The notes under the pieces are model-generated. The model worked only from the letters and a program-made list of their open reading frames with translations, had not been told where the DNA came from and made no database searches. This document shows positions 48,612-62,291 of a DNA stretch of 64,000 bases, piece by piece; the first letter of the stretch is position 1, and each line of letters opens with the position of its first letter. This stretch comes from Lutibacter oceani (lineage in GTDB: Bacteria > Bacteroidota > Bacteroidia > Flavobacteriales > Flavobacteriaceae), in contig NZ_QTTQ01000009.1 of assembly GCF_003384935.1 (NCBI RefSeq), positions 1,116,001 to 1,180,000 on the forward strand, written 5' to 3'. The position numbers and the translations under genes are program-made.

Positions 48612-50165
48612 ATGGAAATTTTAACTATAAAAAGTACTATTAAAAAAGCATTAGATAAATTAGGTGTTAAACAACTAAATAATGGTACATCAACAGGTTC
48701 AAATTCTTTTGGAAAAGGTGAAATTATTCAATCATATTCACCAGTTGATGGTGAATTAATTGGTGCTGTTTCAACTACAACTAAAGAAGATTATAATAAA
48801 GTATTAATTACAGCACAAAAAGCTTTTAAAACTTGGAGATTAAAACCTGCACCTCAACGTGGAGAAATTGTAAGGCAATTTGGAAATAAATTGCGAGAAC
48901 TAAAACAGCCTTTAGGAGAATTAGTTTCTTATGAAATGGGTAAATCTCTGCAAGAAGGCTTGGGTGAAGTACAAGAAATGATTGATATTTGCGATTTTGC
49001 AGTAGGATTATCACGTCAATTACATGGTTTTACAATGCATTCTGAAAGACCTGGACATAGAATGTACGATCAATATCACCCTCTTGGAATTGTTGGTATT
49101 ATTTCAGCATTTAACTTTCCGGTTGCTGTTTGGGCTTGGAATACAGCTTTAGCTTGGATTTCAGGTGATGTTTGTATTTGGAAAGCTTCAGAAAAAGCAC
49201 CTTTATGCAGTATTGCTTGTCAAAATATAATTACAGAAGTATTAAAAGAAAATAATTTACCAGAAGGAATTTCAAATATTATTAATGGAAATTATATTGT
49301 TGGTGAATTTATGACAACCGATAATCGTGTTCAATTAATTTCAGCAACGGGCTCTATTAGAATGGGTAAAATTGTTGCTAAAACTGTGGCAGAGCGTTTA
49401 GGTAAATCATTGTTAGAATTGGGAGGTAATAATGCTATAATTGTAACACCTGATGCAGATCTTAAAATGACTGTTATTGGAGCTGTTTTTGGAGCTGTAG
49501 GTACTGCCGGACAACGTTGTACATCTACAAGAAGGTTAATTATACACGAATCTATGTATGACAAAGTAAAAGATGCATTGGTTACTGCTTATAAACAATT
49601 AAGAATTGGAAATCCATTAGACGAAAATAATCATGTTGGACCTTTAATTGATAAAGATGCAGTAAAAATGTATGAAAAAGCATTAGATAAAGTTATAGAA
49701 GAAGGTGGAAAAATAATAGTTCGAGGTGGAGTTTTAAGTGGGAAGGGATATGAAAGTGGTTGTTATGTAAAACCTGCCATTGCAGAAGCTGAAAATCATT
49801 TTGAAATTGTACAACATGAAACATTTGCTCCTATTTTATACTTATTAAAATATACAGGTGATGTAACGAATGCAATTGAAATTCAAAACGGAGTTGTACA
49901 AGGGTTATCATCAGCAATTATGACGAATAATTTACGTGAAGCTGAACAATTTTTATCTCAAGCAGGATCGGACTGCGGAATAGCAAATGTAAATATTGGT
50001 ACTTCCGGAGCTGAAATTGGAGGAGCTTTTGGAGGTGAAAAAGAAACAGGCGGTGGTAGAGAGTCTGGTTCTGATGCTTGGAAAATTTATATGAGACGAC
50101 AAACAAATACAATTAATTATACTACGGAATTGCCTTTAGCACAAGGAATAAAATTTGATTTATAA
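48612..50165 (+). CDS. Aldehyde dehydrogenase, ALDH7 (aminoadipate semialdehyde) type
   Basis: A 517-aa NAD(P)-dependent dehydrogenase closest in pattern to the ALDH7 group, which oxidises alpha-aminoadipic semialdehyde / piperideine-6-carboxylate in lysine breakdown. The catalytic Glu269 lies in LELGGNN and the nucleophile Cys303 in GQRCTSTRRL. The C-terminal GGGRESGSDAWKIYMRRQTNTINY is ALDH7-like. No other lysine-degradation gene is adjacent, so the substrate is inferred from the subfamily alone. Confidence 0.88.
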   Translation: MEILTIKSTIKKALDKLGVKQLNNGTSTGSNSFGKGEIIQSYSPVDGELIGAVSTTTKEDYNKVLITAQKAFKTWRLKPAPQRGEIVRQFGNKLRELKQPLGELVSYEMGKSLQEGLGEVQEMIDICDFAVGLSRQLHGFTMHSERPGHRMYDQYHPLGIVGIISAFNFPVAVWAWNTALAWISGDVCIWKASEKAPLCSIACQNIITEVLKENNLPEGISNIINGNYIVGEFMTTDNRVQLISATGSIRMGKIVAKTVAERLGKSLLELGGNNAIIVTPDADLKMTVIGAVFGAVGTAGQRCTSTRRLIIHESMYDKVKDALVTAYKQLRIGNPLDENNHVGPLIDKDAVKMYEKALDKVIEEGGKIIVRGGVLSGKGYESGCYVKPAIAEAENHFEIVQHETFAPILYLLKYTGDVTNAIEIQNGVVQGLSSAIMTNNLREAEQFLSQAGSDCGIANVNIGTSGAEIGGAFGGEKETGGGRESGSDAWKIYMRRQTNTINYTTELPLAQGIKFDL

Positions 50166-50180
50166 AAAATAAGAAGAATA

Positions 50181-50319
50181 AAATAAGGCTATTTAAAAAG
50201 TATATTTTTCGTCAACCTGAAATAAATTCAGGTTCTCAAAGTAATTGATTAACGGTACGATGAGATTCTGAAATAAATTCATAATGACGGTTCTCAATAC
50301 TTTTTAAATAGCCTTATTT
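50181..50319. repeat. Outer 23-bp perfect inverted repeat around a REP-like element
   Basis: The arms 50181-50203 and 50297-50319 are perfect reverse complements, with core AAATAAGGCTATTT and A/T-rich flanks like the bidirectional terminators elsewhere in the window. They are 93 nt apart. The right arm overlaps the last codons of dxs. It looks like one terminator stem whose loop has been filled by the inner element. Confidence 0.75.
50210..50289. repeat. REP/MITE-like palindromic element
   Basis: An 80-bp element with 29-bp imperfect terminal inverted repeats, starting CGTCAACCTGAAAT (50210-) and ending TTCATAATGACG (-50289). An inner hairpin, CCTGAAATAAATTCAGG, lies at 50216-50232. It resembles the dispersed GTCA-CCTGAA-type palindromes seen in many Bacteroidota genomes. 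No second copy is in this window. Confidence 0.65.
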
Positions 50320-52086
50320 CAACTTTAATAAAAATTCTTTTATCTTTTCTTTAGATAAATTTATTTTTTCAAAAAGCGCTTCAACTTTTCCATGTTCTAT
50401 AAAATTATCTGGGACTCCTAAGGTTTTTATTACATTATTTTTGTAATTATTTTCAGATGCAAATTCTAAAATAGCAGTTCCAAATCCGCCAATAATTGTA
50501 CCATTTTCTATAGTTACAATAGTTTTAAATTTTTTAAATATTATATGAAGTAATTCAGTATCTAAAGGTTTTATAAAGCGCATGTTGTAGTGAGCTACTT
50601 TATTTTTAGGTAAATCCTTCTGAATATCTATAATTGTATTTCCAATATTACCAATACTTAATATAGCAATTTCATTTCCTTCTGTAATACAATTTCCTTT
50701 ACCAATTTTTATAGCTGAAAAAGGTTGTTTCCAGTCGATAATTGTTCCTCTACCACGAGGATATCTAATTGCAAGAGGGAAATTAATGCCTAATTGTGCC
50801 GTGTACATTATATTACGCAATTCAATTTCATTTAACGGAGCAAATAGTACCATATTTGGTACGCAACGTAAATAAGCAATATCAAAAACACCATGATGCG
50901 TAGCACCATCTTCACCTACAATTCCTGCTCTGTCAATACAAAAAATTACAGGTAAATTTTGCAAAGCTACGTCGTGAATAATTTGATCGTAGGCACGTTG
51001 TAAAAATGTAGAATAAATGTTGCAAAACGGAATTAATCCTTGTGTTGCCATTCCTGCACCCAAAGTAACTGCATGTTGCTCAGCAATACCAACATCAAAA
51101 GCTCTTTCAGGAATTTCATCTATCATTAGTTTTAAAGAACTTCCAGTAGGCATTGCGGGTGTAATACCTACAATATTTTTATTTTTTTTAGCCAGTTCAA
51201 CAATAGTTTCTCCAAAAACATCCTGAAATTTAGGAGGAAGTAATTCATTGCTTTTTGGGGCTAACTCACCTGTAATTTTATCAAATTTACCGGGAGCATG
51301 GTATTTTACCTGGTCTTGTTCAGCTTTTTGTAACCCTTTTCCTTTGGTGGTAATAATATGTAAAAATTTAGGCCCTTTAACCTGCTTTAACCTTTGTAAT
51401 TCCTCAATAACAGCATCAATATTGTGTCCGTCAATTGGTCCCGAATAATTAAAGTTTAAAGCCTCAATGATATTATTTTTTCTAACTTTTTTACCTGCTT
51501 TTACATTGGTAAAATAGTTTTTTAAAGCCCCAACACTTGGGTCTATCCCCATAGCATTGTCGTTTAAAATAATTAACAAATTTGCATCAGTTACCCCTGC
51601 ATGATTTAATCCTTCAAACGCCATTCCACTTGCAATGGAAGCATCACCAATTACTGCAATATGATGTTTTTCAAAATTCCCATTTAATTTTGAAGCAATT
51701 GCCATTCCTAATGCTGCAGAAATTGAAGTTGACGAATGTCCAGTGCTAAAAGCATCATATTTGCTTTCACTTCTTTTGGGAAATCCAGAAATACCACCTA
51801 ATTGTCTGTTAGTATGAAAAACACTTCTGCGTTCAGTTAAAATTTTATGCCCATAAGCTTGGTGACCAACATCCCAAATTAATAAATCATTTGGAGTGTC
51901 AAAAACATAATGCAGCGCAATTGTTAATTCAACAACACCTAAACTTGCACCTAAATGACCTTCTTTAGTTGCAACAATATCAATAATAAAATCACGTAAT
52001 TCTTTAGCAACTTGTGGAAGTTGTTTTTTTGAAAGATTTTTTAAATCTTTTGGATTGTTAATATGTGATAATAAATTGTTTTTCAT
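50314..52086 (-). CDS. dxs: 1-deoxy-D-xylulose-5-phosphate synthase
   Basis: A 590-aa thiamine-diphosphate enzyme condensing pyruvate and glyceraldehyde-3-phosphate, the first step of the MEP isoprenoid pathway. LIWDVGHQAYGHKILTERR, the TPP motif GDASIASGMAFE with NDN, and the C-terminal transketolase domain (about 470-590) are present. Length is slightly below the usual 620 aa without a lost domain. A perfect -7 box TAGTTTTG lies 6 nt before the ATG, so its leader is almost absent. It diverges from tadA. Confidence 0.96.
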   Translation of the reverse strand: MKNNLLSHINNPKDLKNLSKKQLPQVAKELRDFIIDIVATKEGHLGASLGVVELTIALHYVFDTPNDLLIWDVGHQAYGHKILTERRSVFHTNRQLGGISGFPKRSESKYDAFSTGHSSTSISAALGMAIASKLNGNFEKHHIAVIGDASIASGMAFEGLNHAGVTDANLLIILNDNAMGIDPSVGALKNYFTNVKAGKKVRKNNIIEALNFNYSGPIDGHNIDAVIEELQRLKQVKGPKFLHIITTKGKGLQKAEQDQVKYHAPGKFDKITGELAPKSNELLPPKFQDVFGETIVELAKKNKNIVGITPAMPTGSSLKLMIDEIPERAFDVGIAEQHAVTLGAGMATQGLIPFCNIYSTFLQRAYDQIIHDVALQNLPVIFCIDRAGIVGEDGATHHGVFDIAYLRCVPNMVLFAPLNEIELRNIMYTAQLGINFPLAIRYPRGRGTIIDWKQPFSAIKIGKGNCITEGNEIAILSIGNIGNTIIDIQKDLPKNKVAHYNMRFIKPLDTELLHIIFKKFKTIVTIENGTIIGGFGTAILEFASENNYKNNVIKTLGVPDNFIEHGKVEALFEKINLSKEKIKEFLLKLK

Positions 52087-61570: not shown

Positions 61571-62242
61571 ATGGGGAAACTTTTTTTAGTTCCTACACCA
61601 ATAGGAAATTTAGAAGATATGACTTTTAGAGCCGTAAAGGTTTTAAAAGAAGTAGATTTGATTTTAGCCGAAGATACAAGAACCAGTGGAAAGTTATTAA
61701 AGCATTTTGAAATTGCTACACATATGCACAGCCATCATATGCATAACGAGCATAAAACGGTTGAAAATATAGTGAAGCGTATACAAAATGGTGAAAATAT
61801 TGCCTTAATTTCAGATGCTGGAACACCAGCAATTTCAGATCCTGGCTTTTTATTAACCCGTGCTTGTATAGAAAATGATATTGAAATTGAATGTTTACCT
61901 GGCGCAACTGCATTTGTTCCTGCATTGGTAAATAGCGGATTGCCAAACGATAAATTTGTTTTTGAAGGATTTTTACCTGTGAAAAAGGGAAGACAAACAC
62001 GGTTAACGTTTTTAGCTGAAGAAACCAGAACTATGATTTTTTATGAATCGCCTCATAAATTATTAAAAACCCTTAATAATTTTGCTGAATATTTTGGAGA
62101 AGATCGTCCAATATCAGTTTCTAGAGAATTAACAAAGTTATATGAAGAAACTATTAGAGGAACAGTTTCAGATTTGATTGAACATTTTACAAAAAAAGAT
62201 CCAAAAGGGGAATTTGTAGTTGTGGCAGGTGGGAAGAAGTGA
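61571..62242 (+). CDS. rsmI: 16S rRNA 2'-O-methyltransferase RsmI
   Basis: A 223-aa SAM-dependent methyltransferase modifying the ribose of C1402 in 16S rRNA. The opening LVPTPIGNLEDMTFRA, the AEDTRTSGKLL segment, SDAGTPAISDPG and the FYESPHKLLKTL motif are all family hallmarks. It is slightly shorter than the 280-aa E. coli enzyme, as is common in Bacteroidota. It starts 2 nt after the cupin gene and ends at a strong terminator. Confidence 0.95.
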   Translation: MGKLFLVPTPIGNLEDMTFRAVKVLKEVDLILAEDTRTSGKLLKHFEIATHMHSHHMHNEHKTVENIVKRIQNGENIALISDAGTPAISDPGFLLTRACIENDIEIECLPGATAFVPALVNSGLPNDKFVFEGFLPVKKGRQTRLTFLAEETRTMIFYESPHKLLKTLNNFAEYFGEDRPISVSRELTKLYEETIRGTVSDLIEHFTKKDPKGEFVVVAGGKK

Positions 62243-62291
62243 AAAACTTAAAGCCTAAGAAATTATTAAATTTCTTAGGCTTTAAGTTTTT
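62242..62291. terminator. Bidirectional terminator after rsmI
   Basis: A perfect 22-bp stem (62242-62263 with 62270-62291) with core AAAGCCTAAGAAAT and loop TATTAA. It serves rsmI on plus and the iron alcohol dehydrogenase on minus. Confidence 0.92.

Follow-up and report, generated by a model that had tools for sequence, protein, structure and literature searches.

The 139-bp feature between the aldehyde dehydrogenase gene and dxs of Lutibacter oceani is very probably an old non-autonomous transposon of the IS1182 family, a MITE, which carries a pair of REP sequences as cargo and would have been placed at a stem-loop by a transposase acting in trans. At this site the REP-carrying MITE probably replaced a terminator that had stood at the gene end before. 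The feature was studied within a window of 64,000 nucleotides, i.e. the whole stretch of DNA that was analysed, and all positions refer to this window. As far as the DNA sequence goes, the case is made up of a composite unit, arms that match IS1182 ends, a placement at hairpin sites, remnants of stems without real target duplication in a young sister family, and the symmetry of the arms.

The feature is bounded by two inverted arms of 23 nt each (50181-50203 and 50297-50319), which are 100% complementary and separated by a spacer of 93 nt. Between them lies a core of 80 nt (50210-50289), which begins with CGTC, ends with GACG and contains two REP hairpins in inverted orientation. Coordinates and pairing thus confirmed the perfect 23-bp inverted repeat around an 80-bp element that had been described in the earlier note. 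From the left, the feature consists of the stem foot AAAT (50181-50184), situated outside the transposon end, the left terminal inverted repeat AAGGCTATTTAAAAAGTA (50185-50202, plus strand; consensus of 29 copies AAGGCTGTCTAAAAAGTA), which matches the ends of the IS1182 family, and a linker of 7 nt (50203-50209, plus strand). The first CGTC-tagged REP (50210-50234, plus strand) comprises the CGTC tag, an 8-bp stem (AACCTGAA/TTCAGGTT) and a 5-nt loop, and is separated by a spacer (50235-50264) from the second, inverted REP (50265-50289, minus strand), whose stem ATTCTGAA/TTCATAAT has one mismatch and is followed by GACG. A linker of 8 nt (50290-50297, plus strand), the right terminal inverted repeat (50298-50315, minus strand), which is the exact complement of the left one, and the stem foot ATTT (50316-50319) complete the feature. 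Each arm of the window copy deviates from the arm consensus GAGGCTGTCTAAAAAGTA at 3 of its 18 positions; both arms have GGCTATTT where the consensus has GGCTGTCT.

The window was scanned for inverted repeats of at least 14 nt lying at most 160 nt apart. Of the 48 repeats found, the longest 25 were considered; among these, the 23-bp stem was the sole perfect one with a long spacer and tied for the longest with the repeat at 62242-62291, whereas the other perfect repeats of 17-23 nt had loops of 0-4 nt or overlapping arms. The 139 nt fold with -50.2 kcal/mol in comparison to -17.6 ± 3.4 kcal/mol for shuffled sequences (n = 200; z = -9.5), and the opposite strand reached a z of -10.8.

The neighbouring genes are convergent. 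The ORF on the left (517 aa, 48612-50165, plus strand) is called aldehyde dehydrogenase gene after the earlier note and the plasmid annotation of homologues, and the ORF on the right (590 aa, 50314-52086, minus strand) bears the name dxs given in the earlier note. The stop codon of dxs occupies 50314-50316, and the outer edge of the right terminal repeat takes in two of its bases. The overlap of the right arm with the coding end of dxs was hence correctly noticed, as this minus-strand ORF ends inside the right arm. At the corresponding site, the relative G001 possesses a loop-free palindrome (GCTCCTTTAAAGGAGC) differing from the stem in the window, and in the relative G004 another REP-like pair is present, next to which, towards dxs, lies a remnant resembling an arm (4 mismatches). 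The REP-like repeats in the gap behind the aldehyde dehydrogenase gene differ among Lutibacter species (L034, L037, L038, L046); at L037, in G002, the arm-REP composite is reversed and adjoins another gene behind the aldehyde dehydrogenase homologue. Carriage by plasmids or phages was rejected, since the best 20 of 21 plasmid records found with the window query matched the aldehyde dehydrogenase end only, and the phage search with this query gave zero matches. A known RNA family was rejected as well, the single match lying far under the cut-off of that family.

When the 139 bp were used as a query against the own genome (3.38 Mb, 16 contigs), 53 matches were obtained at E ≤ 10, and several of the top matches span the whole 139 bp, arms included. 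With a covariance model built from nine copies, 50 strand matches were obtained, corresponding to 29 places. According to simple ORF calls, 14 of these places are in convergent and 15 in co-directional gaps, and none is in a divergent one (P451 was assigned on the basis of a converging ORF at a distance of 245 nt). Arms, linkers (7-8 nt) and core are conserved as one across the copies. Beyond the own genome, a search pattern in which 5-12 nt separate the arm from the start of a REP matched 47 stretches, the titles of which name Lutibacter, Muricauda, Allomuricauda, Flagellimonas, Tamlana, Sinomicrobium, Xanthomarina, Mesonia, Flavobacteriaceae and one Bacteroidia bacterium; the genera we take to be members of the Flavobacteriaceae. 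A right arm with at most 3 mismatches in 13 positions is present in 35 of the 47 loci, and at least eight of the remaining 12 have, as judged by eye, the right arm nearer in, behind a core with a single REP. The arm motif with up to two mismatches occurred 95 times in the own genome and 79 times in the reversed control, which is barely higher because the copies are old. As the other copies share similar arms and linkers of 7-8 nt, arms and core are one composite. Copies sharing their arms are the finding that the earlier note had named as contrary to its proposal of an element inserted into a terminator stem. Its alternative, that the arms belong to a larger composite element, proved to be the better reading, since the arms recur and match the ends of the IS1182 family.

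The comparison of the arms with IS1182 ends was prompted by the literature on IS1272/TnSha1. In G009, another Lutibacter, an IS1182-type element (L248) is bordered by the arm sequence. The arm consensus was present at both ends, with 0-4 mismatches in 18 positions, in 10 of 17 IS1182 loci inspected, although these matching loci represent one clade, nine of the ten having been obtained via homology to the L248 transposase and three coming from one genome. At L285, one end matches the consensus at 18 of 18 positions. In the background the minimum was five mismatches, and none of 232 windows fell below it. IS1182 transposases were matched at E ≤ 1e-3 in 18 of 38 Lutibacter genomes, in six of them above the family cut-off, and a search with the L248 transposase at E ≤ 1e-60 found relatives of it in 21 of the 397 genomes of Flavobacteriaceae. 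The genome of the window gave no match to the IS1182 transposase model (NF033551) and none at 1e-60 in the search with the L248 transposase, so that an autonomous partner with matching ends is absent from it, whereas G009 possesses one (L248). Other IS1182 groups of Lutibacter were rejected as partner, because their ends differ (GAAGCYGTCTCA, GAGGCCACTGAAAAAG). The full-length elements of the family (L248, L278-L285) have hairpins just inside their ends, in several cases followed by T runs; these internal hairpins might act as terminators.

G009 also contains a young family of near-identical units of 127 nt (131 nt with GA...TC), which have the same ends and a different REP-like core. At least 16 units were found (L307-L322), and the arm motif occurred far more often in G009 than in the control (145 versus 58). 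It is likely that this genome holds many further copies. At 15 distinct sites the sequences just outside the two ends form an inverted repeat which is specific for each site, with an identity of 8.13 of 14 positions versus 6.28 after re-pairing (p = 5e-5); L311 was excluded from this test because its flanks equal those of L310. The uninterrupted run outside the ends averaged 4.33 versus 1.66 after re-pairing, a value reached in 0 of 20000 re-pairings. An abutting direct repeat was missing at 13 of the 15 sites and measured 2 nt at the other two; in this respect the sister family agrees with IS1272-like elements, which form no target duplication.

The comparison with relatives covered ten sites of G009 and yielded comparable gaps at L307, L310, L313 and L314, those of L313 and L314 containing additional sequence. 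For the L310 site, the hairpin is unbroken in G029, and long flanks could be aligned to its left and right; in G009 the foot of this hairpin is retained and the MITE replaces the 36 nt of its middle. This hairpin also occurs in G034, G017 and G031, where it may belong to a dispersed repeat. The L307 site is occupied by plain terminators in G034, G017 and G029, and G013 is without a clear hairpin there, while at the L314 site a hairpin is present in one of three relatives. Other Lutibacter genomes contain an imperfect hairpin that recurs as a dispersed repeat (ACATAATTGCAGATATAG...CTATATCG..GCAATTATGT; L328, L349, L355, L356), and in G009 it was entered by the MITE.

For the old copies, 19 own sites (18 of the 29 places and that of the window) were compared with at most three relatives each. 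At 16 of these sites, one or more relatives have a compact hairpin in the orthologous gap; counted by gaps, 24 of 42 contain one, as opposed to 4 of 42 coding windows; 14 of the 16 are clear, the hairpin of P1180 being a REP and that of P664 having 7 bp with two G/C. In the gaps of the relatives with a hairpin at these 16 sites, the best match to the arm had at least six mismatches. P121 is the clearest case: here G004 has AAAAAAAGCACCAATTTGGTGCTTTTTTT between flanks that are 93% and 86% identical. A scripted scan detected no compact hairpin in the relatives at P677, P451 and the site of the window. At P677 two relatives are devoid of a hairpin even though the copy has arm-like ends, which suggests that its arms arrived together with the element, and this copy apparently entered without a target hairpin. 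Plain terminator stems likewise differ among the relatives, and therefore the old sites alone cannot prove replacement. Of the idea that the element targets terminator loops, the terminator-type site between convergent genes and the hairpins of the relatives at 16 of 19 sites have been borne out, but the REP pair did not simply enter a host stem.

The two arms of a copy change together. Deviations common to both arms numbered 42, compared to 16.1 ± 3.2 after re-pairing (0 of 5000 permutations). This could reflect selection for pairing, as in a bidirectional terminator, a correction of palindromes at the DNA level, or symmetric feet captured at the outermost positions.

Thirteen aligned own cores fit the description of CGTC-tagged REPs (tag, stem of 8-9 bp, loop of 4-5 nt, inverted pairs); in most of these copies the REP tail is CTCAT, compared to CCA in most published CGTC REPs. 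The core itself is not constant. Different REP-like pairs occur inside the same ends at L095 in the own genome, at L307-L322 in G009 and at L324 and L325 in G004, and the ends are found without any REP core at L089 (own genome) and L326 (G004). It seems that capture or exchange of cores took place more than once. Further inserts, often hairpins, are located in REP loops at L091 (C2:419823), L093 (C1:779229) and L094 (C2:483465 and 486077), and also at L202, L205, L206 and L230 of other genomes, resulting in nested palindromes; one recurring insert is TTTACTCAT...GAATTCGTGAATCTTCGATTTCAG. At L079 (own genome, C3:518759-518892) and L136, a REP pair is situated within an unrelated stem (GTTATTTGGAGG...CCTCCAAATAAC), and in the orthologous gap in G020 a REP pair adjoins a separate terminator.

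A REP pair that entered, on its own, the loop of a terminator already present in the host, the stem of which then became the arms, would agree with the REP-free stems, with the unrelated stem at L079 and with the different cores, which may enter an existing stem, as well as with the terminators of the relatives at most of the compared sites. This explanation is nevertheless improbable, and for the window copy it was rejected, because the arm sequence is shared among copies and matches transposon ends. The linkers are conserved together with the arms, two relatives are without a hairpin at the P677 site, and the arm-only stem L089 itself looks derived from a transposon, with G004 having a different terminator at that position.

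Very improbable is a REP-type element, such as a long REP dimer or BIME, in which a transposase dedicated to REPs would move arms and REP pair as one and the resemblance to IS1182 ends would be due to convergence of terminator-like sequences. The conservation of arms, linkers and core as a unit and the lack of an IS1182 transposase in the genome of the window are in agreement with it. However, a search for the Y1 transposase (RAYT, PF01797) gave 0 matches in this genome, while the control detected it in 5 of 14 known genomes, and a mobilisation by RAYT was rejected for this reason. The core-only model had matches in five of six Lutibacter genomes, being absent from G001. Around 81 REP pairs from five Lutibacter genomes (21 own pairs and 60 of at least 66 places elsewhere, with six places of G002 left out), the 18-bp arm was present on both sides in 29 cases, on one side in nine and on neither in 43, in comparison to 32 matches in 1620 shuffled single flanks; a significant outer palindrome surrounded 27 of the 81. 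The 43 armless pairs show that REP pairs also exist outside the arm composite. Thus, 52 of 81 pairs do not have the arm on both sides, the same ends enclose other cores, and the resemblance to IS ends lies far beyond the background. A chance structure, or an ordinary terminator with a long loop that arose at the site with no mobile element involved, would fit the fast turnover of terminator stems among these species, but is extremely improbable given that the unit of arm, linker and core recurs across many loci and genera.

For the MITE with IS1182-type ends, the following course can be proposed. An IS1182-type transposase would act in trans and put such elements at stem-loops, chiefly gene-end terminators. 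The stem-loop would be replaced and the target not duplicated, also at the site in the window. The A/T-rich feet of the old terminator and the paired transposon ends would then give a new stem, with the 18-bp terminal inverted repeats pairing as the inner portion of this 23-bp stem, and the convergent genes would be left with a putative bidirectional terminator. The remains of the older terminator may be restricted to the outermost A/T-rich base pairs; the AAAT foot (50181-50184) is possibly such a leftover, as judged from the sister element in G009.

Comparable systems are known. EFAR elements of Enterococcus faecalis are palindromic miniatures that enter stem-loops, whereby most of the target is deleted and a part of its stem is retained. 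In staphylococci, IS1272/TnSha1 of the IS1182 family are described as replacing unrelated stem-loops, several of which are proven terminators, whereby the target hairpin is lost partly or wholly and no target duplication is formed (PMC5678879, PMC4923244). Ends of about 16 bp, hairpin insertion, hairpin loss and the lack of duplication are alike. In contrast, IS1272/TnSha1 are complete staphylococcal elements that contain a gene for a transposase or a cargo gene, whereas the feature described here has 139 bp without such a gene, encloses a REP pair and belongs to the Flavobacteriaceae, the two being likened by their descriptions. The IS1182-type MITEs of Methanosarcina acetivorans (160 and 169 bp), which derive from ISMac2, are likewise short, non-autonomous and assigned to an IS1182-family partner; they come from a different domain of life, and the description consulted is silent on REP cores and terminator sites (PMC3852290).

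The core resembles the CGTC-tagged REPs of Di Nocera 2013 (PMC3733652) in its CGTC tag, the 8-bp stem starting with A-T, the 5-nt loop and the inverted unlike pairs, and differs in the tail, which is CTCAT here and CCA in most, but not all, of the REPs described in that study. REP families within palindromes were also reported there (CGTC-1 of H. neapolitanus and GTAG-15 of A. variabilis; PMC3733652). In that account, as far as consulted, the palindromes are regarded as targets, no transposon ends are identified and REP-free palindromes were not found in those two species, whereas here the arms match transposon ends and L089 and L326 are free of REPs. IS1182 MITEs (PMC3852290), hairpin-replacing IS1182 elements and palindrome-enclosed REP pairs (PMC3733652) are hence already in print separately. 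A REP-carrying IS1182 MITE, or the combination of IS1182 MITE, REP cargo and terminator site, was not described in the literature searched, which is weak evidence of novelty because most subscription journals are outside its coverage.

It is tentatively suggested, at somewhat less than an even chance, that IS1182 MITEs are a general vehicle of REP pairs in the Flavobacteriaceae, with constant ends, exchanged cores (at least five types) and host terminators being swapped, and thereby a route for the spread of CGTC REPs. These REPs 'apparently lack a dedicated transposase', as stated in PMC3733652, and the composite offers a testable answer for part of their spread, namely that they ride between IS1182-type ends. 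The composite also suggests an insertion strategy of low cost for the host, in which a terminator would be removed and the paired ends of the element would rebuild one. Rebuilt terminators would make terminators safe landing sites, and safe landing would help to explain the accumulation of such repeats between convergent genes. IS1182 elements are over-represented between convergent genes, as PMC9208149 reports.
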